Shown in pieces: positions 41,978 through 64,000 of a DNA stretch of 64,000 bases (the stretch's first letter is position 1; each line of letters starts with the position of its first letter). The notes below the pieces were generated by a model. That model was not told where the DNA came from. It worked only from the letters and a program-made list of their open reading frames with translations, and did no database searches. The stretch spans positions 1,302,001-1,366,000 of the forward strand of contig JAPEUQ010000011.1 in assembly GCA_027946365.1 (NCBI GenBank), read 5' to 3'. The DNA is from Kalmusia sp. IMI 367209 (lineage: Eukaryota; Ascomycota; Dothideomycetes; Pleosporales; Didymosphaeriaceae). A program made the translations under genes and the position numbers.

Positions 41978-44767
41978 CTACTGCTTCTGCCTCGTTTGTG
42001 CATTCGGGAACAGCAGCGCCAGTCCCTCCTCCCAGCCCCTCTCCGATACAATATCGATGACAGGGCGTCCAGACTCGTCGATCGCCTGCAAATCCACGGA
42101 GCCGCCCTTCTCGATGAGCAGGCGCAGAATATCAGCGTCACCATTTTCGACGGCTTGTAGAATAGCGTTCCATCCGCGGTGCATCTTGTTGATATCGGCA
42201 CCACGCGTAAGCAGCATTTGCAGGATCTCGGTGTCACCGGGAAGCAGTCTGCGAAGTGCTTTGACGAGAGGAAGATGCTCGCCAGGCGCGTTCGGGTCGG
42301 CATTCGCTTCGTCGAGCAAATATCGCACAATATGCTTGTGACGTTCGCGAATAGCGGTCGTCAGCGGAGAGAAAACACCGCAATTCTTGTCCTCAACGCT
42401 GACTCCTGCTGCAAGGAGCATCTTGATGCTTTCTAGCTGATTGGCGACGACAGCCATTTCAATGACACCACGGAAGGCACGCGGGTTTGGTGTTGCAGTA
42501 AGAAGCTTCTTGAGAATTGCAGGTTGCTTAACGGCCATGCAGAGTGGCCAGTCTGCACCACGGATAGTTGGGTCTGCACCGTTGGCAAGAAGAGTGTCAA
42601 CCAATTCAATGCGTTCATCGCGGATAGCCGTCGTTAGCGCCGTGTTTCCTTCTGGGCTGCGGTCATTGGGGTTCACGCCCTGGTCAAGAAGGTACATCAA
42701 GGCGTCCTTATTGTTATGTGCGATGGCCGTTTCAATGATGCCTTTTGGAGTGCGCAAGTCTGCCCCCGCAGCGACGAGCTGAGGCAGGAAATGCACACGA
42801 TTGTGAGTAATGCACTTAAAAGCGGGATACTCAGCCGCATTGAGGTTTGGGTCGGCACCGTGTTCCAAAAGGTAGGTGACAATGTCTGCGCTGTTGTCAC
42901 GAATGGCCGAGCAGAGAGGAGTGTAGATGTTGTCTTTCCTCACGTTAGGGGATACGCCTGCTTGCATGAGAATAGATATGGACTCCATCTTCTTCAGACT
43001 CGCCGCTAGCTCCATGATTCCAGGTGTCTTCTTACAGTCAGCACCACGAGACAGCAGGAGTTGAAGAGCTTTCGGCTTGTAGGTAGAAGGCCAAAGCGGG
43101 TGTTTCGGGCCAGGAAGGTTAGGACTAGCACCGTTGTCAAGAAGCACCGTCATCAGGTCCACCCGATTTGCTTGAATGGCTTGGAACAGCGCCGTCGTAC
43201 CCTCGCCGTTCTTTGCGTCGGCATCAGCCCCCGATTTTAGAAGAAGTTCAACGAGCCTAGGCGACACTGTTTTATTCATGCACTGGACGAGCGTAGTGCT
43301 ACCGCTCTCCATGATGTAACCTGCGTCTCCACCGCTCGCGAGCATGAGTTGAATTAGATCGATACGGTTTTCGCAAGCGGCCACACAAAATGGTGACTCA
43401 GAATTGGGGCCTGCAGAGAGATTTGGATCTGCACCAGATTTGAGGAGTAGCTTTGCGCCTTCGAAAAATGATAGTTCGGCTGCCGCGAGCAGAGGTGTGA
43501 CATCATCCTTGTCAAGGCCATTGGGGTTGGCACCATACCGAAGGAGTAAGGCGAGGCTTTCAGCATCGCGGTTCTGTACCGCAGTCCTGAGCATACTAGC
43601 TTCCAAACGTGGATCTGCTTTAGCACCACCATCCAACATCTGTTCTAGTATTCGATGTTTCCTCTGATGTACGGCATCAGCGAGAGCGGCTTTGCCGCTT
43701 GATTGCATAGAACCAGCTTGTTGTCTAGGTGCCCACTGCGGTGCCACTGGACCTTCTGGCTTTGACAAATATGTTTGTGGGGTTTCAACCGAATACCGCT
43801 CCTGAAGGGAGAGATGGTGCAGATCGTTATCGATATAAGTGTGGGACCTAGCCGAGTCATCTGATGAGTGCTCCCCATAGCCCGGTTGACCATGGAATGC
43901 TCCGTTGTGCTGGTAGACAGTGTCTCGAATTGAATGCGTGGTGCTGCCGGATCGTACGCTGGGGGCGCGCCAGTGGTTGTGCAGATCAACGATACCAGGT
44001 GAAATGCCGTGTTCATCTCTCCGAAAGTCATGATTGGATGGTCGGTCTCGTAAAGGCGTGTTCGGACGCTGATCGAAGTGAGAGGGAGCTCGGTCTAGCC
44101 CACGTTCTTGTGGCGGTGGCACTCGTTGCATGGACGACTGCTCTAAAGATCTGTGATCTATCGAAGCAGCATGCATAGAAACTTGTTTTGATGGAACCTC
44201 GGGCGGTGAAGAAACAGGTGGCGGTTGCATGGGCAGAAGGACGTTGCTTTTGCCTGGGTTGAGACGCTCGAGCGCTGCAATCAGGCCAGTATACCCAATG
44301 CCCATCTGTGAATCGGCTTTGGCGTCTCCGAGCGACCATCGGAACATTGCTGAGCTCACTTTCAAAGCATCGCGGCTCTTCGTTAATGTGTTCCTCACTT
44401 TATCGACATCGGTATCGGCGAACATCATCCGGAATGCCCTGCCAAATCCGCCCTTCTTGGTCTCGTTGTCCAGGAACTTAAGCATCATCTGGTTGACGAC
44501 GATGAACTCATCGTGGATCCTGCGGAAATGCTTATCGAGCTCTTGTGTCACCTCGGCCGGAATGGCATTCCGCTTGTGAGACGATTCTGTCAACCCCGCT
44601 TCAATTGACCAGATGAGGCGGCTCAGCTCGAGGAATTCGTTTGCGAGGGCCTGGATGCCATGGATGGGATTCTTCGCTGAGCTGAGATACTCTAGCATGC
44701 GAATTGCGATGCTGTTACCTTGAACGGTAACTTTGTTACATAGGTCGAGGGTCTTCGGTGGAGCCAT
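41978..44767 (-). CDS. large ankyrin-repeat protein with N-terminal helical domain
   Basis: Intronless, 929 aa from the ATG at 44767; the frame upstream has only a TTG. Residues 1-~170 are all-helical (ALANEFLELSRLIWSIEAGL; HFRRIHDEFIVVNQMMLKFL) and look like the fungal N-terminal domain often fused to NACHT or ankyrin modules. Residues ~180-370 are a Pro/Ser/His-rich linker. From ~385 to the end there are at least 14 ankyrin-type units with the G-A-D/N-P-N turn (LLLKSGADPNLS, LLLRYGANPNGL, YLLDQGVNPND, LLLTRGADIN). Ankyrin arrays bind other proteins. No enzymatic domain, NACHT or transmembrane segment is present. A scaffold or regulatory role is inferred. Confidence 0.88.
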   Translation of the reverse strand: MAPPKTLDLCNKVTVQGNSIAIRMLEYLSSAKNPIHGIQALANEFLELSRLIWSIEAGLTESSHKRNAIPAEVTQELDKHFRRIHDEFIVVNQMMLKFLDNETKKGGFGRAFRMMFADTDVDKVRNTLTKSRDALKVSSAMFRWSLGDAKADSQMGIGYTGLIAALERLNPGKSNVLLPMQPPPVSSPPEVPSKQVSMHAASIDHRSLEQSSMQRVPPPQERGLDRAPSHFDQRPNTPLRDRPSNHDFRRDEHGISPGIVDLHNHWRAPSVRSGSTTHSIRDTVYQHNGAFHGQPGYGEHSSDDSARSHTYIDNDLHHLSLQERYSVETPQTYLSKPEGPVAPQWAPRQQAGSMQSSGKAALADAVHQRKHRILEQMLDGGAKADPRLEASMLRTAVQNRDAESLALLLRYGANPNGLDKDDVTPLLAAAELSFFEGAKLLLKSGADPNLSAGPNSESPFCVAACENRIDLIQLMLASGGDAGYIMESGSTTLVQCMNKTVSPRLVELLLKSGADADAKNGEGTTALFQAIQANRVDLMTVLLDNGASPNLPGPKHPLWPSTYKPKALQLLLSRGADCKKTPGIMELAASLKKMESISILMQAGVSPNVRKDNIYTPLCSAIRDNSADIVTYLLEHGADPNLNAAEYPAFKCITHNRVHFLPQLVAAGADLRTPKGIIETAIAHNNKDALMYLLDQGVNPNDRSPEGNTALTTAIRDERIELVDTLLANGADPTIRGADWPLCMAVKQPAILKKLLTATPNPRAFRGVIEMAVVANQLESIKMLLAAGVSVEDKNCGVFSPLTTAIRERHKHIVRYLLDEANADPNAPGEHLPLVKALRRLLPGDTEILQMLLTRGADINKMHRGWNAILQAVENGDADILRLLIEKGGSVDLQAIDESGRPVIDIVSERGWEEGLALLFPNAQTRQKQ

Positions 44768-47700
44768 GACCGGTAGATACCTGCCTCTGCAAGTCGAGAG
44801 GAACGAAGATTGAAGCAGACGCAAAAATTATCGAGCGGGCTCAGGGCTTCTGATCCTTTTGAAGGCTTATCTGAGCGTACCATTGTTTCGTGCCCTCGCG
44901 CCCTACCGCGTTCTGGCCTGGCCGTCCGAGGTACGAACTGCTAGTTACGGTCATTACAGCTCATTGAGCTAGCAGGCGAATTGACGGGGACCGCAGAGGG
45001 TTCGTCATGCGTAGCGTACTCGAGAGCACGAGCCTTTGACATTAGGTTTGCCCAGCCGATGCCCCGTCAACACTAGCGCCCAATGCCCAGTGCCTGTCCC
45101 CGAGAGAGGGGCGCATCCAGGTGCACCCCAGGCAGCCACAGCTCCTGTGACAGCTGCCATGCAGCGGCTGCACCAGTAATCCCTGGATAGTGGGAATCCT
45201 CAATTCTGCTCACAAGCAGTCCCTGCCCTAGGGCTGCCGTCATTCGCTTGAAGGGCAAATCGCGCCGTCACAACTGCACCATCATCACCACAAACCTTGC
45301 TAGTAGAATGTTTATATTTTGTCGTTGCTCGATCCTATCCATGTTGTACAGGTCTCCTAGAAATGTAAATGACTTCTTGCAAATGCAAGTCGGTCATACA
45401 ACAATTGAAGTTAACTTGCCTCCTGAGTCAGTAGCGAGCTATTAGTAAGGTAAGCGCGGCAGTCGATAGATACGACGAAAGCTCTCACACATCGCTGCGA
45501 TACGGGACGATCGAGAGTGACTGGTAATATCGAAAGCCTGGGGCTTCCTGATAAGATTTCATGGGAATCTTCCGTACAGAATGCCTCCCAACGCATGCGT
45601 TCCGTAGCGTTGACAGAAGCTGTCCCTCTTGATTTGGCATAGTGCTGCAATGGATATTCACACACCTGTCATACTCACGCTCTTGCATCCTAATTTCTAA
45701 GCAAGACTCGGCAGTTTATCGCTAGTTTTTTTTGTAGGCTTTCAGGACAAATGCAGATCTTCACTTTCAACAGATGACCTTATGAATGTAGGTGTGCTAA
45801 TGGGGACGTTACTGAAGTGCTTGGACCAAAGACCCTAGCTACGGCTGAGATATGGGTGGCCAGGCTATTGACGACATCAGCTGCAAGGACTCTTCGACGC
45901 AAGCATCACATGCGCCCCGCTGTGATGAGAGCCTCGAGACAGATCCACACCTTGATTTGTGGGGCAATTGGACCCGGGTCCGATTAGCGCACGCAACATG
46001 ATTGCAACGAATGACAATACCTTGGCTTTGCCACGCCTTGACCGAAATTGGAGCGGTTGCCTCTGGTAGCGAACAAATCATTTGTGGGTAACAGCAGGTA
46101 ATGTAGTATTCTCGCCATAAGAGTTCGCCGAGCGAGACCGACCGGCGTCGCTTCCTCTGATGGCTTAGTGTTAACATTGCTCCTTTCTTGAAGCTATTGA
46201 CTGCCATATCGATTGCCCACGGGTAGCTGCTATAACTCTGGTGATATAGTAGTGGACGCCATTCGCAATATCGAGGTGAACCGAAATCCTGAAGGAACAT
46301 AGAGATCTGCGTGCTTCAAGATGAAAGATGAGTGCGGGGCGCCGGAACAGAGACCAATGGTTTGTGCAGATGGCTTAATGCTAATTTCCGTAAGGTTTAG
46401 GTCGCTTGAACGTATGTACTAACACAGGAAGTATATCGTTGGAATTAAGGCTTCTAAACAAGCTTGTAAGCTCTCAAATCTTATCGAATACGTAGCAAAT
46501 TCAAATATAATGCCGACCAGTCTGGAGTGCACGCACGGAGCGTGCAGCGACGAGCGCGATCTCGCGGTCATCACGCAACCAAAAAAAAATTCGCTGGCTG
46601 ATCGATTTTAGTGCTGCGGGCGCGGGCTTGTTCCCACGTGGATTCCGGAGCGCACCCGCTGGTGTGTTGTGGCAGTGGCCCGACCGATGTCGAACGTAGG
46701 GTGGCTTGTGACGGACTGCAACGGCGTGTGGACAAGCAGTTCGACAGCTGAACAAGCGCACCGGGATTACCGAGTCCACGACATCGGGCAAGTCGCGTAA
46801 TCTTCTGCAAGGAATAGCGCTGGCTCAAAGCTAAGGTAGCTCCCCTTTCCAACATTGGCACGGCGCAAAGCCGGTCCAGGCCGCGCGTATTGGTTGAAGG
46901 GGAAAGCACTGAGCAGTGGCTGCGTCTAGACTGTCTTAGTGCCGCTCAGGAAGAGAATGCGATAGGGGAGGTCTTTATCGTGATCGGAGGATTTCTTCGG
47001 ACGGTGGGAGCACGGAGGGAGTTCGAGGAGAAATTGCAAAGATTGGGTCGCAAAAGGTTGGAAATCGAGCCGCGCGATCGCTCGCGCTAGTAGCTCCTAT
47101 GGACTAGCGCAATCTAGAAGGCTCTAGTCCTAGAAGCGCTGCGGGGAAGGCGCGGATGAGGAAGAGGCAGGCGCAGCGGCAGAAGCAATAACAACGACAA
47201 CCACTTTTACGGCCATCTCCAAGTCCTCTGTCGGCTATCGGCTGTCGACTGCCGGCTGTCTGCTCGCGTGCGCAATTGAGATTTGAGCACCGCCTCATAG
47301 GGCGTCGTCAGAGGGCAGCCCTGTCGTGATCCTTCTCTCTCTCTCTGCCAGTTAGTGCCCGCATCGGACCACATTTGTTGTGCTCGGTAGAACCCTCAAA
47401 GGTACCTGGAGTCTGCATATTTGACACTGGTACCTCTTGCGATTAGATCTCGTTGTGTTCATCCCGTAAGAGACAGCATAACAAGCAGATCGAACGTGCT
47501 AAATCTTGTAAACGCAGGCTCGAGCATGGAATTTTTCAAATCTATCACAAATTTACACTCCTGTCATTGTGCTTACTCTCTGGCTCATGGCATCGGGCAG
47601 ACCCCCACGGAATTTGTCGCAGCCGAGCCGTTCCAAGCTCGATGAAACTTCGCCCAAAGTCCGTCATCTCCCATGGCACTGCCGAGAACAAACACGACCA

Positions 47701-56278: not shown

Positions 56279-58513
56279 TTACACTTTCTCAAAGCACTCC
56301 ACTACCGCTCCATAGAATGCTCCATTTCTCATGCTCTCATACACCGCACTGATCATACTCCCCATAGTCCGATATTGTACTCTATTACCCAATCGTGTCC
56401 CATCGTCCCTTTCTGCTGTCCGAAAATACTCGTTTCCCGCGAACGGTACCTCCAACTCTTTCCTCACAAAATGATAACATCTTTTGCTAGCTTTCCCTAG
56501 TATAGGTGTTGCATCTGGATTAGCAAGATAGCGCGTGCGTACAGCAGCGTAGGTCGCACATGCCTCGTTCACGCAATCAGCGTTCCATTGCAGTACAGCT
56601 TCAAGCGAGCGGGCATTCGTGGGAAGTGAACGCAGGAAGAGTGTCTGCAGATAGTCTAGGGCGGAGGAAAAACGGGCTCGTGAGTCGAGATGTGTAGTAG
56701 TGTTCATGCGGTCGGAGAGGGTAAGCCAGAGGTCGTATGCTATTTCAGCGCTGGGACCTTCGCTAGAGGGTGTCGTGGGTTCGATGCAATCACTCAGGCA
56801 GCGGCGTGTGAGGAACTTGAACTTCGGAGCGAGCGCGTAAAGGAATTGCATGTGTAGTGCGCGCAGGTCGAGGGCCTGACACAAGGCAACGACGTGTGCA
56901 GCCGCGAGCTGTGTGAGAACATCGATGGAAGTGAGGGTGTAACGGGCAGATATAAGGGAGAGTGAGTTGATGGCTTGATAACCCATTTCTGCGAACTGGA
57001 CGTGAGTGCTGACGGGACTCGCTAAAAAGCCCAGCTCTGATTGCAGACCAGCAATGAGAATATCAGTGCCTTTGAAGAGGCCCGACTGGCTGGGCTCGTC
57101 TACGACAAGGTAGGGCGCGAGGCCTTTATTGGATGCTGGATTGATGATCTCCGTGCACTGTGAAAAGAGCATCTGACCCAGACTCTGGCAGGCCTGGCGG
57201 ACCTTCTCCATTGCTGATGCCAAAGATTTACCCTGGAAGTTTCCACCATGGACCATTTTGCCCATTGGATCTATTAGCGGTGTATCGGTCGCAGAATTGA
57301 TTTCGATCGAGATTTGCGAATGCGCAAGTTGTAGGTCTTCAAGACTGGGGCCTATCCATTGGGGCGCAGTCCTGACGGCATATTTATCTGATCGCTCCAT
57401 GAACTCATCTGTTGCCGAGTCCCAGACGATCAATTTTGAACCTTGTACGAATGAACGTAGGTTCGTCGCGCACTCCATCTGCCCCGGATGTGGCCGTAGT
57501 TCAGACAGAAGAGGATGGAAGCACATATCTGATGTGCATAGCGCCTCCGCTGACATAGCCGTCAGTACTTGCGAAGTCGCAGCAAGACAGACTGCTTCAT
57601 GAATTGCGAGCGAGGCAACACCTGCCGATGTTGACGTCCCAATCAAAAGGGCCAGCCCCTCCTTTGCACGCACTGCCATCGGTTCGATTTCTGCGTAGCT
57701 CAGTGCTTCATCAGCTGGCACTAACCTACGCCCACCTTGAATGCGATCTCCTATCCAGGCTTGCACTGATGGTTTACCCGCCAGTATGCTCCCAATATAC
57801 GACTGCGGACCCGCATCGCCTACGCCAGATATCGTGGCTCGCAGTGGGAGTCTTGGGACAACGTCCATGTTGAGTAACTGAGAAAGCTTCTCTAGTAAAA
57901 TCGGCCGTATACCCACAGTTGGATAAGCTAATTGATTTGCTCGAACTAGTAGCTGGGCTCGGACCCATGACTCTGGCATTGTGGTCCCTTCCATAGGATC
58001 AAGTAAGGGAATGGCTGAAGAGAATGTGCGAGTAGCTTGCGATATGTCGAAGTCGGTTTCTCCAGAAAGAATCCCGAAGTGGCAATCGCGCATCATGTCT
58101 CGCTGCCAATGTTCGATAGCTGAGACTCGCATGGGAGCAGCGCTATCCCAACTCATGGGCCTATATGAGCCTTTGCTTGTTAACGACTGCATCTCAACAA
58201 TCTACAAGAGTCAAATACCTGACATCGTCTCACCCTCTCTTAGCTCACCGTACTTCTTCTCCGTATGTCTTCGTATCGTCTCTGCGGTGTCCTCGCTAAT
58301 TGCCACATCTTGGCCATACCTGATGGTTCCACAACGTCAGTGCTCATCATCATAGTATAGGCATCACGTGTAGACGTACCTAGCACACGCGACTACTGCA
58401 GCAACACTAAGGCTGCGCCCATCAATGAGAATCTCCTCGTCTTGCGATCGAAGCTTCTCATGCAGCTCGCGCCAATGCGAAACGAGCAAGCGGCTGAATT
58501 CGCCAGCCGACAT
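56279..58513 (-). CDS. phenylalanine/histidine ammonia-lyase homologue lacking the MIO motif
   Basis: Three exons (58513-58380, 58319-58219, 58170-56279), 708 aa, a normal PAL length. Family landmarks are clear: IDGRSLSVAAVVACAR-YG, TTMPESWVRAQLLVRANQL, GGRRLVPADEAL, RPHPGQMECATNLRSF, YAVRTAPQWIGP, HGGNFQGKSLASAMEKVR, LASPVSTHVQFAEM and LCQALDLRAL. In the MIO segment the usual ISASGDLxPxSYI reads ISGVGDAGPQSYI, so Ala-Ser-Gly is Gly-Val-Gly (residues 194-196; 57818-57826). The catalytic-loop YGVTTGFGGS is replaced by a different sequence ending RPMSWDSAAP. NGTS reads IGTS, and NSTTDNP reads NSATDTP. The Arg and Glu of the substrate site remain. Ammonia-lyase activity via MIO is therefore not expected. 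It could be a pseudoenzyme or have a new role. Exon 2/3 splicing is my best phase-consistent solution. Confidence 0.87.
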
Positions 58514-59205
58514 ATCTGTCCACAGATCCGATGCAAGACTTCGTCTTCGCTTCCCCACAGAGTCAATGACAAACGCGTACGCGTCGCCTCAGACAGGTAA
58601 ACAGCAGAATATAGCCCAAGTGTTGACAGCGGTGAGCCTCCTCTCACCGACTCACAGTCCGGTTTGCGGAGTCACGAGATTCCTTCGCACCCCTGTGGAT
58701 CGTCCCAGAGTGCCGCCTCGCGCGCTATTGCCCCCAGGTTTCCAGAAGAAAGGTGTTGCAGCATGACTGCGTGTCAGTCTGGGAATCTGTATGCCGCTTT
58801 CCACGTGCTTAAACTTACAAATGCTGTGCGAGGTGGCCAATTACGATGCGAAAAAATGCATCATGAGAAGAGTGGTGCTGCAGGAATTATTTAACCGGTT
58901 TCGCACCGTCTAGAAGCGGCTAGAGCCAACTTAACGACGCTGCATGAATCTGTGGGTCGACCCAGGACTGGGCTGGAAATGGAATAGAGCCATCGTATTT
59001 CGATGCGGCTTGAATTTCAACTCGTGGAGGGCATGCAGCCTAGTGCTCATTTTTGGAAACCCGTAGCGCGGATATTGGTCCACTTGAGTGTGAATCGGCT
59101 ATCATTCGCCTAGTTGCAACTGGTGACAGCTGCGAATGGCGCACCATTGTATGGCGTTATCGTGTCAAAAGAACATGAGCCCCACTGCGGTGATTCGATG
59201 CCGTC
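58514..59205. promoter_or_regulatory. region upstream of the PAL-like gene
   Basis: 692 bp between two minus-strand genes; includes the PAL-like promoter and the 3' end of the hydrolase gene. The PAL-like frame stays open ~75 nt further upstream without an ATG, so a short 5' exon cannot be excluded. Confidence 0.35.
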
Positions 59206-60563
59206 CTACAACTTGGCAACGTCTCTTGCTTTGGGTCTTGGTACGTATGCACCCTTCTTGACCATCTCAATCCACCTATCAGATAAATCCTTCCTGTCAT
59301 TCTTACTCTTCCCCGTGTCAATCCTTGCCCAAAACTCGCTCTCTTCTGTCCACCTCCCCACCTCTTTCGCTAACCACTTCGAGATTTCTTTTGCAGTCCT
59401 CTGCGGAGCCTCAAAGCAAAGAAAATGTGACGTCTTGTCGATGACTTTCAATTCAGTGCCGCCGTCCTTTGCCCCTCCGTTCCCACCTCTTTTTGTGCCT
59501 GTCAAACCGAACAATTTATTGCGTTGGTTCGCGGTGTTGATATGCGAATTTCTGCCAAACAGGTAGAGTGTTCTTGGTCGGAGATGGGGAAGCATGTGTA
59601 AGATGTGTGCACTGTCGCCTCGAGCGAATGTCTCAAAACTTGCGTCCTCAAAGGGCAGAAAATCTGGGCTAAGAAGGCGCTCATGATTCCTGGCCTCTAC
59701 TGTCGTGTCCTCGGGTACGGCGTGGAAGTTGGACCGGGCAAATGACCACGCTTCCTGAGCCTTTGGAGTCGTCAAGGTAACGGAACCGCCCCCTAGATTT
59801 TTCAGACCGTACTTCAAATAGGCTTCCAGAATGCGGGGCTCAAAGGTTTGAAAGAGTGGGTGTTTTTTGAATGAAACGTTGGCCTTCTCCCGTGAAGTCC
59901 ACATCTCGCGGCGCAAGGATGAGAACATAGCGGCATTAGGTCCAGGTGGATGCGCGTCCAAGATGACCGGATCGATCAAGATGACGGAGTGGAAAAGGCG
60001 TGGATGGATCAATGCTAGATAGGCGCTGCAGCGAGTGGTCAACGTCCCAATCGTATCACCGTGGTGGGAGTCTTCACTTACATGTGAGCAGATCCCATGC
60101 TGTGCCCAATGCCTACAAAGGGGGGCTTCATTCTCCCCCGGAAAGTATTCACCATAAGCAACAGATCGCGTGAATGATCCATCCAACACGGATCATCCCC
60201 CAGAAGCTCTGCATTCTTTGCATAGCTCGCACCCTGATGCGCATATTCCGCTATCCATATCGATTGCACTTCGAAGCCTTTCCCTGCATCTATGATCTCA
60301 TCCCATATAGCTTCGTAACATTCCTACTGACATCAGCTGGAAGCTTTCGTTGGCGGTATTGCCTCATTTCATACCTTCGGGAAAGCATTCCCATGACTCG
60401 CGATAATAGTCACTGCATTCTTCGATGGTTCTGTATTGCGCGGTCGGTACTCCTTGACAGCGAGGAAGAGCTCAGCGTCATCGCGTTTGACAGCGTGCGG
60501 GTATTCCCGGATTAATTGACAGGGCGACCAATGCTCGGTGACGATAAACTTTTCGGCAGACAT
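59206..60563 (-). CDS. peroxisomal alpha/beta hydrolase (AKT2/LPX1-like)
   Basis: Three exons (60563-60375, 60323-60082, 60025-59206), 416 aa. Alpha/beta-hydrolase features in order: VTIIASHGNAFPK (oxyanion strand HG), WIAEYAHQGAS, the nucleophile elbow GIGHSMGSAH (GxSxG) joined by an in-phase intron to IAYLALIHPRLFHSVILIDP, and a late VIDKTSHFLCFEAP supplying the catalytic His. The last three residues are Ala-Lys-Leu, a type 1 peroxisomal targeting signal. The architecture resembles the group that includes the AKT2-type proteins of host-selective toxin clusters and the peroxisomal lipase LPX1. Without toxin-cluster partners here, a toxin role is not implied. It sits directly upstream (in genome order) of the PAL-like gene, same strand. 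Confidence 0.85.
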
Positions 60564-60994: not shown

Positions 60995-62655
60995 TTAGTA
61001 CTTATACCTCAGCTCCAAGTTTTCCCGATCCGTCATATCGCTGAATTCGATATCTGGCCTGTGCTCAACATGCGCCTTATCTCTCCTCTTATTCTCCCAA
61101 TGGTAATACCCAAGTAGAACCAGGACAGCGACGCAAACTGTCGAATCGACCGCAACGATGGTAATTTTCGCAGGGGTGAACTCCGGTGCGTCTGCGTCGC
61201 GGAACGTGAGCGGACCCAGAATGTTTCCCAAGCAGAACGACATAAGGAGGATGGCGTTCATCGTGACTTTTTTGGTGTGACCCTGCACATTGGTCAGACA
61301 GATGGAACTAAATGAAGCGGAAAGGAAGGGGAACCTACTGCAAAGTTACATGCTGCGAACGAGTAGGAAAGTGGTAGGAAGGCGCCAGTGACATGCGTGA
61401 AGTAGTTTCCGACCAGTCTTCCAGCTCGATCACTAGTTGGTAGAAATGCGATCAGACCTCCGCCCAATATGCCACCCCATGCAGTCCACACAATTTGCAT
61501 GGCGCCGCGACGATTGTATCGCGCTGCAATCTGCGTGCCCACGATAACACTCACCACTGCGATGAACCCTCCTGGGATTTGCAGCAGCGCGGTGATCTTG
61601 TTTGAAAAACCAAACGACTTAATCAGCACGCTCTGGAATGAGCCCACCGCGCCGTTCGGAATACTCGCTGCCGTCGTGATATACGCCAATAGCCAGACTT
61701 GCGGGTCGCGCAGCGTTTCGACGAACTGATAGAGCTTAAAGTGCTTGTTTTCGATGCCGGTGTTGTTCTCACGGAGACGCTCGACCGCCATGACTTTTTC
61801 GGCGTGCGATAGTCGACTTGACATTGGGTTGTCTGGCAGAAACAGGATAACGACAACACCCGCGGAGACCGTGACTATGCCCACGACCAGGAACATGATT
61901 TGCCAATTATTGAAGCGTGTGCCATTGTAGTGTTGGAAACCATACGAGATGAGCGATCCAACCATGACTGCACAGCCTACCCCCATGTACCAGAAACCAA
62001 CTCTCTTCGGTTGTTCGTGACTGAAGACAGGTCAGTCACTAATAAAACAACGACCTTTTCGACGAACATACCGCTTGTACCACATCGATGTAACGAGAAT
62101 AAGCGACGGACTAATAGCGGACTCAAACATGCCCAACAAAAAGCGGCACGCAGCGAGCGAAGCATACGAGTTGCAGGCCGCCGTGCAAGCTACAACAGTA
62201 CCCCAAAGGCAGACCATAGTCCCCAGGTATTTTGCAAGCGGAAGTCGTTGCATCAGAAAAGCATGAGGCATTTCGAAGATTAGGAAAGCGAGATAGAACA
62301 GCCACGAGAGCGTGCCGTATTGTTGAGTCGTAAGGTTAGCATCCTCAAAGATGCCCATAACCGCTGCATAATTTACTTAATGATTGTTAGCTTCATTTCT
62401 GGCGAACCATGCTGCGAACTCACAAAGAGATTTGTCGAGATATTGAAGGAAGTAGCAGGCGAACATGATAGGCACGATCATCCAATCGATGCGCATCACT
62501 AGCTTCCTCTCATCGACAACCGTATGTTCATCGCCTGTCTCGTTATACTTCAAGAACTCGAGCGCCTTGTCCATATTCTTGTATGCGCCCTTTTCTGGTG
62601 CAATATCGTCCGCATCTGACAGCTGTCTAGCGTCCTGAATTTCGTCTTTGCCCAT
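60995..62655 (-). CDS. MFS transporter, allantoate/nicotinate permease (Dal5/ACS) family
   Basis: Four exons joined at SL-LNYAAVMG, WYKR-HEQPKRVGFWY and CNFA-GHTKKVTMNAI, all phase-consistent; about 500 aa. It starts with a hydrophilic N-terminus and the RIDWMIVPIMFACYFLQYLDKSLLNYA segment, the hallmark of this family (D, YxLQYLDK). It continues with GTLSWLFYLAFLIFEMP and the RFLLGMFESAISPSLILVTS segment, and twelve helices can be traced. Family members import anionic organic acids, allantoate, nicotinate, pantothenate or small peptides by proton symport at the plasma membrane. The substrate is not determined. It is the third co-directional gene of the PAL-like block. Confidence 0.92.
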
Positions 62656-64000
62656 GATGTCTATCTCTTGCCCTTTCCTCCTCGATTAACTGAAGTGGGC
62701 TTGTCTTTGAGATAAGAAATCCTCCAGATGGTCACGGACGGTAGTATTTCTATCGTCCGACAAGCACAAGGCCAAGTACCCGTCATTGATAATGGTTACT
62801 GCCACCCACCGTTCATCGACATGGTGACTCCTGTATCCGGAAGGTGAATTACAGAAGCGCTACTGAAATGAGAAATAGTGCGAAGCCGGTTAATTCGGAT
62901 TGGTCGTCATCGTTGGGGTAATACACAGCGGTTGAGATTGCCGGTGCGGGGACAAGATAGGCTTATCGCAATAAGGCGAGCGGCAAATGCTTGAGCGTAG
63001 CAGGCAGAGAAAGGCACAATGACAGAAGTGGGACAAAACATCATACCTAGGATCGCGATATTATTGTTGCGCCTTGGTAGAATTCGCGCGAAGTTCTCCT
63101 CGGCGGGTAGCAAAGATCACGTGTCCGATACTGGTCCTGATTTTGGACGATGTTATTAGCTTTTGAATATCGACATTGAGTAATCCTTCCATTCAAAGAT
63201 ATAAGCCAAAACGCCTCGCTTCTTGTGTTCAATTTGTATGTCCAGGCTACGATCCAAATATCTACCCGGTTGCACTCCAATCTCAGCCAACTTATTGCTT
63301 TGATAGTGCCCCGACTCGTATTACCAACGATCCGTTCAGTATGACTTCGAAGAAGAGATTTATCTGCTTAAACCGCCTGTGGTTTGCGCTGTGCGGTCGT
63401 ACTGCTTGAGGTCAAGGTCGATGCGCTAATTCGGTCTACGTGTCCTACTTTTAGGCAGCTATGTACAACCGATCCTCTGTTTCTAAACACCGAAATGCAA
63501 GATGAATAGAGGGACTACTCACCTATGGAGCCTCAACTAAACAACGATAACAACGTGGTAGGCCTAGGTAATATCCGGGACGAGGCGTTCACTTAGACCC
63601 GAGTTGGAAATAATTTTGACCGGTTGTTTACAATAAAGTCATGGAGATTGAAAAAATCCGAGGTACTGAACGATGTCATCGCGCGTAGAAATGTTGGGTC
63701 GCCTCTAAAAGTGGTGCCGTACCTGCATTGAATTCAAGGTGCGATAGCGTTACCAACGGTAATAGATCATACTTGTGGTCGTTCAAAATGATTCGCGATG
63801 ACTCGAATATATTCCGTGGGTACATGAACTAAAGGCGGATCTATTGTAGAGCCGCATACACGGCACCCAAGATCTAGGATCATACACGTAATGTATCGCG
63901 AAGCTACACGTTTTGTTGATTGCAGTGTACGGATGAAAAGCTGGTACATTACGATTAATGGCGTATGTTGTTGAGTTTAGAGAAATAGGAGGCTAGCTCT
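62656..64000. other. intergenic to window end
   Basis: 1.3 kb after the transporter start codon. It includes its promoter. Short ORFs on both strands lack coding character. No repeat or RNA gene recognised. Confidence 0.35.

Follow-up and report, generated by a model that had tools for sequence, protein, structure and literature searches.

We analyzed a 64,000-nucleotide stretch of the genome of Kalmusia sp. IMI 367209 (contig JAPEUQ010000011.1, positions 1,302,001 to 1,366,000; here, the window) and found on its minus strand a gene for a homologue of phenylalanine ammonia-lyase (PAL) whose product has lost residues of the catalytic site. We put the probability at roughly two in three that this protein is a pseudoenzyme with the PAL fold: a fungal PAL paralogue, present in Kalmusia and other Pleosporales and selected for a noncatalytic role. 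Pseudoenzymes in general have lost catalytic residues and kept both their fold and selection, and at the protein level the window protein appears to belong among them, with catalytic residues gone and selection probably retaining the protein. This reading draws on sequence comparisons (the losses, the clade that shares them, a low rate of change, and a shift in constraint) and on a model in which the fold is predicted to be retained. We classify the protein within the PF00221 fold family and not among the MIO (4-methylideneimidazole-5-one) ammonia-lyases.

Active site of the window protein

The gene encodes 708 amino acids in three exons, with a stop-free frame and intact splice sites. An earlier note on this DNA had described about 700 residues without a stop; the length and the absence of a stop hold, and the frame is spread over three exons. 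To place the two upstream exons, we used splice sites together with the matching gene models of three relatives (P0002, P0004, and P0005). The open reading frame (ORF) 58192-56279 matches the aromatic amino acid lyase family PF00221 in Pfam at 355.8 bits (cutoff, 27.3) and can be aligned to residues 159 to 709 of Rhodosporidium toruloides PAL (RtPAL). The predicted fold of the window protein is that of PAL, including the C-terminal domain.

At the MIO-forming Ala-Ser-Gly triad, the window protein reads Gly-Val-Gly (GVG), confirming the earlier observation (Table 1). The flanks had been said to align perfectly, which fails for the one after the triad, where the match is kept in part only (GDAGPQSYI versus GDLSPLSYI). 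The three further changes that had been listed are all present, namely, SGSYRPMSWD at the Tyr loop, which reads YGINTGFGG in the sister sequence P0022, IGT for NGT, and TDTP for TDNP; to these we add losses of Gln360 and Asn499 (RtPAL numbering, taken in part from alignments). Among the features of a MIO ammonia-lyase, the window protein thus lacks Ala-Ser-Gly, Tyr110 within YGxxTGxGG, Asn260/270, and the Asn of TDNP, which we take to be Asn384 of PcPAL, and it has the carboxylate-binding Arg354/366 (its Arg345). Tyr363, Phe, Lys468, Glu496, and Gln500 are retained as well. Excerpts of PMC11427684 name Tyr110, Asn260, Tyr351, Arg354, and Asn384 of PcPAL as key residues or as residues of the quantum-mechanical region.

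Because the MIO serine is missing, the window protein probably cannot form MIO, as had been proposed. Across the clade described below, 17 of the 22 sequences with letters at this column lack the serine. According to excerpts of PMC3903478, Rubrobacter PAL with the S153A substitution gave no MIO signal and had practically no activity. We searched 56279-59205 for a hidden Tyr loop in another frame, and the pattern TGxG[GA] is absent from all three minus-strand frames. For the new loop, AlphaFold gives a low confidence (70 to 91), which is uninformative because the model of true PAL is weak at that place as well.

Intron 2 (58171-58218) lies directly after the codon pair that formerly encoded Tyr-Gly of the catalytic loop, which would place the loop swap at an exon edge. 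The other PF00221 locus of this genome (L001) apparently has an intron at the same place, with its frame broken between VYG and VNTGYGG.

A Pleosporales clade of dead copies

Our protein database searches listed the best 120 of 1921, 3180, and 6990 matches, and further or shorter members of the clade are possible. The window protein falls into a Pleosporales clade of 26 sequences (the window protein, P0001 to P0021, and the fragments P0028, P0029, P0030, and P0032), here called dead copies. Support for this clade was 99 (Shimodaira-Hasegawa-like approximate likelihood ratio test) in an 89-sequence tree and 100/98 in a 41-sequence mixture-model tree built after the active-site columns (20 of the loop and 12 others) had been taken out. 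Named members come from Paraconiothyrium, Bimuria, Paraphaeosphaeria, Byssothecium, Corynespora, Massarina, Periconia (two), Massariosphaeria, and Pleomassaria. The sister group, P0022 to P0025 (clade A: Lojkania, Aaosphaeria, and Phaeosphaeriaceae), has an intact site and is 56 to 60% identical to the window ORF. A search for a wider clade with six early clade sequences gave nine new identifiers (P0241 to P0249) among its best 120 matches, none of which joins the clade, since all nine have Ala-Ser-Gly and the Asn of NGT.

Two of these nine, P0241 and P0246 (Botryotinia and Botrytis; about 1,226 amino acids), join PF00221 to the fungal transcription factor domains PF00172 and/or PF11951 and have an Ala-Ser-Gly triad. 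That combination rests on database models and may be a fusion or a gene-model error.

In an alignment of 241 sequences, the losses separate the clade from the 215 others. The MIO serine is kept in 5 of 22 clade sequences with letters, versus Ala-Ser-Gly in 214/215 others; Asn270 in 1 of 23, versus 215/215; Gln360 in 3 of 25, versus 215/215; the Asn of TDNP in 9 of 26, versus 214/215; and Asn499 in none of 26, versus 215/215. These cells come from related sequences, so that they are not independent events. Tyr363, Glu496, and Gln500 are also invariant among the 215 others. All clade sequences that cover the region (15 of 26) have another sequence in place of the Tyr110 loop. At the Tyr110 column itself, 14 of the 26 have letters (S, 8; T, 2; A, H, K, and Y, 1 each), of which the Lys of P0001 is an intron read-through and the Tyr of P0020 precedes a loop that is missing from the P0020 gene model, perhaps through a prediction error. 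Of the 215 sequences outside the clade, 110 have gaps here and 32 have different letters, most likely because their database ORFs begin within or close to the intron, so that only the 73 sequences with Tyr and the loop glycine (present in 134 of the 135 that have letters) can be relied on for this element.

The earlier note had suggested a tree and a search for relatives that share GVG. Among the 22 clade sequences with letters at the triad, 12 have GVG, 3 have ASG, 2 have GSG, and GLG, GAG, GIG, AAG, and GFG occur once each. P0001, which has seven differences from the window protein over 637 amino acids (99% identity), and 10 further clade sequences carry GVG, and it is therefore no base error of this assembly. 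With the other active-site losses also shared, a sequencing or assembly error at the triad is vanishingly improbable.

On a side branch formed by P0020 and P0021 (Pleomassaria and a relative), the otherwise invariant Glu496 is replaced by Ala and Lys468 by Gln; P0021 still has Asn270 and Ala-Ser-Gly.

Constraint in dead copies and true PAL

Entropy, newly conserved columns, and rates were analyzed mostly on 17 of the 26 clade sequences, excluding a near duplicate (P0001), early branches (P0015, P0019, P0020, and P0021), and the four fragments. The group of true PALs to which L001 belongs (clade B) excludes P0139 and P0140 in the rate work. Ten species pairs could be formed among five species that have both paralogues by name; five Lojkania pairs were excluded, their clade-A copy being intact.

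Dead copies are more alike than true PALs in 9 of the 10 species pairs, and between Kalmusia and Bimuria the identities are 0.808 (dead) and 0.817 (true). Site rates correlate at 0.66 to 0.86 among four working groups and at 0.13 to 0.31 between these groups and the dead clade. The dead clade has a shallow tree (length, 2.36), for which reason we added three depth-matched controls (2.05, 1.92, and 1.91). Their correlations are 0.56 to 0.89 for the working groups (without the group of origin, 0.56 to 0.69) and 0.11 to 0.28 for the dead clade. Core residues 440 to 510 change at 0.33 to 0.36 of the mean rate in the working groups, 0.45 to 0.52 in the controls, and 0.77 in the dead clade; for residues 510 to 560, the corresponding values are 2.25 to 2.45, 1.75 to 1.98, and 0.71.

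The same shift appears within species pairs. In all 10, the catalytic core is looser in the dead copy than in true PAL, and residues 1 to 94, 510 to 559, and 560 to 649 are tighter. Between Kalmusia and Bimuria, dead and true copies have 52 and 16 differences at 249 core sites, 12 and 28 at 84 sites of residues 1 to 94, 3 and 14 at 43 sites of residues 510 to 559, and 14 and 20 at 79 sites of residues 560 to 649. Fisher tests of the core versus the ends (1 to 94 plus 510 to 708, omitting 95 to 259), with regions picked post hoc from the rate map, gave odds ratios of 5.4 for Kalmusia-Bimuria (p = 3e-7) and 3.6 for the two Periconia (p = 1e-5), pairs that share no branches, and of 3.2 for Kalmusia-Paraphaeosphaeria (p = 6e-5) and 2.6 for Bimuria-Paraphaeosphaeria (p = 1e-3), which share branches with Kalmusia-Bimuria. 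Constraint has been relocated: compared with true PAL, the core is looser, and tighter constraint is seen in the N-terminal part and across the greater share of the C-terminal domain.

A decaying pseudogene would suit the core, which is looser than that of true PAL in every pair. The reading frame and splice sites are intact, however, divergence is about equal to that of true PAL, and three regions are tighter in every pair. Decay is very unlikely, since a neutral protein over such distances would not stay so similar. The protein database holds open frames only, in which broken copies elsewhere would be invisible. Sequencing error and pseudogene were thus both considered and rejected on the shared GVG and other losses and on conservation. 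The view, already taken in the earlier note, that function changed rather than decayed is well supported at the protein level, with the changes shared by a clade, conservation about that of true PAL, and constraint redistributed.

Besides the post hoc choice of regions, several observations weigh against a pseudoenzyme maintained by relocated constraint. Between Kalmusia and Bimuria, residues 650 to 708 are looser in the dead copy (14 versus 10 differences at 56 sites; tighter in the other nine pairs), and residues 95 to 259 are about equal (30 in the dead and 26 in the true copy at 150 sites). The spread of rates is flatter in the dead clade (gamma shape, 0.93 versus 0.41 to 0.75), which could partly be relaxation. 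Six active-site residues are near universal in the clade (Arg366, 26/26; Phe, 26/26; Gln500, 25/26; Tyr363, Glu496, and Lys468, 24/26 each), leaving room for a ligand pocket. Finally, P0015, P0019, and P0021 keep Ala-Ser-Gly and P0011 and P0013 have Gly-Ser-Gly, so that the clade as a whole need not be MIO-less and these five might form MIO.

Probable order of loss and the altered pocket

On the 41-sequence tree, the fewest changes needed are one each for Asn499 and Gln360, two each for Asn270 and the MIO alanine, four for the MIO serine, and five for the Asn of TDNP. Parsimony would place the loss of Asn499 at the base of the 26 sequences, those of the Tyr loop (on the 15 of 26 sequences that cover it) and Asn270 by the base of 24, and that of Gln360 by the base of 22; the MIO serine would have been lost late and more than once. 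The copies of Corynespora and Massariosphaeria still have Ala-Ser-Gly and have already lost the Tyr loop and Asn270.

Replacement at the five lost columns is nonrandom: none of the 104 replaced cells holds a charged residue (Lys, Arg, Asp, or Glu), and one holds His. The MIO serine gave way to Val, Leu, Ile, Phe, or Ala (one of the first four in 15 of 22 clade sequences). Of the 22 sequences that replaced Asn270, 17 have Ile, Val, Met, or Ala there (full set, I, V, A, M, T, S, and H, with at least 13 letter changes), and 20 of the 26 clade sequences have Tyr or Phe instead of Asn499; Gln360 and the Asn of TDNP were replaced mostly by small residues. These five columns change at 1.3 to 3.0 times the protein mean in the dead clade (Asn270, 3.0 times), versus <0.1 in the four working groups. 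Uncharged replacements and drift fit a polar cavity that has turned to packing, and the drift speaks against newly fixed chemistry at these columns.

At the old Tyr-loop place, 11 of the 15 clade sequences with loop letters share RxxS[WYF]; P0003 starts inside the motif, and Corynespora, Massariosphaeria, and Pleomassaria are without it. A stricter six-letter pattern occurs within the first 140 residues of 10/26 clade sequences versus 1/215 others.

The retained residues would suit a sensor, whose old pocket would bind an aromatic acid or an amino acid but not convert it; the carboxylate-binding Arg and the Phe are indeed present in every clade sequence. The pocket columns nevertheless drift and gain bulk through the aromatic and aliphatic replacements of Asn499 and the MIO serine, and 91 of 107 near-invariant columns are held at half or more in the clade, so that there is nothing unusual in the presence of these two residues; we rejected it as proof of ligand binding. 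Amino acid binding, which the earlier note had offered as a possible function, is poorly supported given this drift, and we consider a sensor improbable.

An enzyme of the same fold that works without MIO, like ergothionase, on a substrate whose leaving group departs more readily appears more improbable still. Ergothionase does show that the fold can do without MIO (6s7j; excerpts of PMC13405746), and Arg366, Tyr363, and Glu496 are kept here. The window protein has also lost the Tyr110 loop and Asn270, however, and its replaced columns vary between sequences, most of all at Asn270, whereas new chemistry should fix residues. It is far nearer to PAL than to ergothionase by sequence (328 bits to RtPAL versus 53.4 bits to 6s7j). 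Structural Z scores of the predicted fold (about 41 versus 35.0 for ergothionase) do not discriminate between the two, given scores of 35 to 38 for further lyases that lack the C-terminal domain.

Possible roles of the dead copy

If the window protein is a pseudoenzyme, its once polar catalytic pocket would be filled by aliphatic and aromatic side chains that now serve as packing. The protein would then act through surfaces of its N-terminal segment and of the helical domain at its C terminus, with another protein as the most likely binding partner.

The 42.8-Mb Kalmusia genome has two PF00221 loci in a profile search, the window gene, which is the dead copy, and L001 (C5:576175-577596), an intact true PAL of clade B (P0121). 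Regulation of a true PAL was the other function offered in the earlier note, and such a pairing would suit a regulatory or assembly subunit that tunes true PAL by forming mixed tetramers with it. This proposal falls within the pseudoenzyme reading, and the likelihoods of the two overlap. Both paralogues are found by name in Kalmusia and four more species of the 11 named (two listings of the best 120 matches). Arg366, Tyr363, and the Phe, which a PAL subunit probably donates to the active site of its neighbor, are kept. Plant PALs are reported as homo- or heterotetramers in excerpts of PMC4560161. For 6 of the 11 named species, however, no clade-B PAL is named among the best 120 matches, where unnamed sequences and 90% clusters could hide some, so that mixed tetramers may not be general. 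Gln360 is lost despite lying on the same segment as Tyr363 and Arg366, and the dead and true paralogues are only about 35% identical (P0002 versus P0121). We regard mixed tetramers as unlikely overall.

At the positions that align with 136/137, P0121 has His-Leu. We take this to be a tyrosine-preferring signature, by which P0121 may act on Tyr besides Phe.

For the fuller course of events, we offer only tentatively that the PAL fold was reused whole: Asn499, the Tyr loop, and Asn270 would have been lost early, followed late and in more than one event by the MIO serine, the core would have become hydrophobic, and the C-terminal domain and the RxxS[WYF] loop would form the functional module, possibly of a noncatalytic subunit that docks on true PAL or another partner.

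Many clade proteins are named phenylalanine ammonia-lyase in public databases (among the best 120 of 1921 matches), and pathway predictions built on that label are probably in error. Within one fungal order, the clade and its sisters form a graded series from intact to dismantled sites, from which the order of conversion of an enzyme to a probable nonenzyme, and the parts that selection holds, become readable. Surfaces that can be tested emerge from the constraint map (residues 1 to 94, residues 510 to 649, and the new loop), and a MIO-less PAL fold is a natural control for the effect of the MIO segment and Tyr loop on folding.

Gene structure and neighboring sequence

Pfam matches of the window neighbors revealed no gene cluster that names a pathway, and nothing near the PAL-like gene ties it to phenylpropanoids. 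The codon-position GC content of the gene is ordinary and carries no information. Among the best 120 of 1921 database matches, there is no Kalmusia entry for the dead gene and the true PAL P0121 is listed; the depositors' annotation may therefore have missed the dead gene. Upstream of the MFS transporter, the stretch 62801-64000 has a GC content of 0.459, versus 0.510 for the window. Elsewhere, a 948-codon open frame with ankyrin repeats lies at 41978-44824 on the minus strand.

Table 1. Positions of the PAL-like gene, its active-site elements, and its neighbors within the window
Feature	Position	Strand	Remarks
PAL-like gene, exon 1	58380..58513	-	Start ATG at 58513; splice GT..AG; MSAGEFSRLL.. 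agrees with NCBI models P0002, P0004, and P0005
PAL-like gene, exon 2	58219..58319	-	Splice sites and gene models of relatives
PAL-like gene, exon 3	56279..58170	-	With stop; within 637-codon ORF 58192-56279
PAL-like gene, introns	58379-58320 (60 nt); 58218-58171 (48 nt)	-	
Ser78	58220..58222	-	Replaces catalytic Tyr110 (RtPAL/PcPAL numbering)
New loop SYRPMSWDS	58142..58168	-	Replaces INTGFGGSA
Gly194-Val195-Gly196	57818..57826	-	GGC-GTA-GGC, reads I-S-G-V-G-D; replaces MIO-forming Ala-Ser-Gly
Ile255	57641..57643	-	IGT for NGT; replaces Asn270 (RtPAL; Asn260 of PcPAL)
Ser339	57389..57391	-	Replaces Gln360 (RtPAL)
Tyr342..Arg345	57371..57382	-	Kept; RtPAL Tyr363, Arg366; PcPAL Tyr351, Arg354 (carboxylate-binding Arg)
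Thr375	57281..57283	-	TDTP; replaces Asn of TDNP
Phe390	57236..57238	-	Kept
Glu473, Tyr476, Gln477	56975..56989	-	Glu473 and Gln477 kept; Tyr476 replaces Asn499
Residues 510-559, start of C-terminal domain	56729..56878	-	Slowest of eight regions in dead clade, fastest in four working groups
Neighboring ORF	59206-60189		No Pfam match
MFS transporter, other part	60998-61288		No match in Pfam
MFS transporter	61297-61986		Matches PF07690

Comparison with known systems

MIO-less members of this fold, such as ergothionase, and pseudoenzymes as a kind are already known. In the open-licence literature on MIO-less, inactive, or Pleosporales PALs, we found neither an example of an ammonia-lyase pseudoenzyme nor a description of a conserved clade of PAL pseudoenzymes with shifted constraint; excerpts of PMC9002059 name no MIO-less fungal PAL. 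Ergothionase of Treponema denticola resembles the window protein in lacking MIO, which GVG in place of the triad would also entail here. It differs in being an active bacterial enzyme with a much more distant sequence, and its substrate has a trimethylamine leaving group. By bit score, the window protein is not among its closest kin. The clade-A sisters P0022 to P0025 differ from the window protein in that their active-site elements are intact. The closest likeness in overall build is to fungal PAL of R. toruloides (1y2m and 1t6p), with which the window protein shares PF00221, a predicted full-length fold with the eukaryotic C-terminal domain, and Arg366, Tyr363, Phe, Lys, Glu496, and Gln500; it differs from that enzyme in the loss of Ala-Ser-Gly, the Tyr110 loop, Asn270, Gln360, the Asn of TDNP, and Asn499 and in an altered map of constraint.
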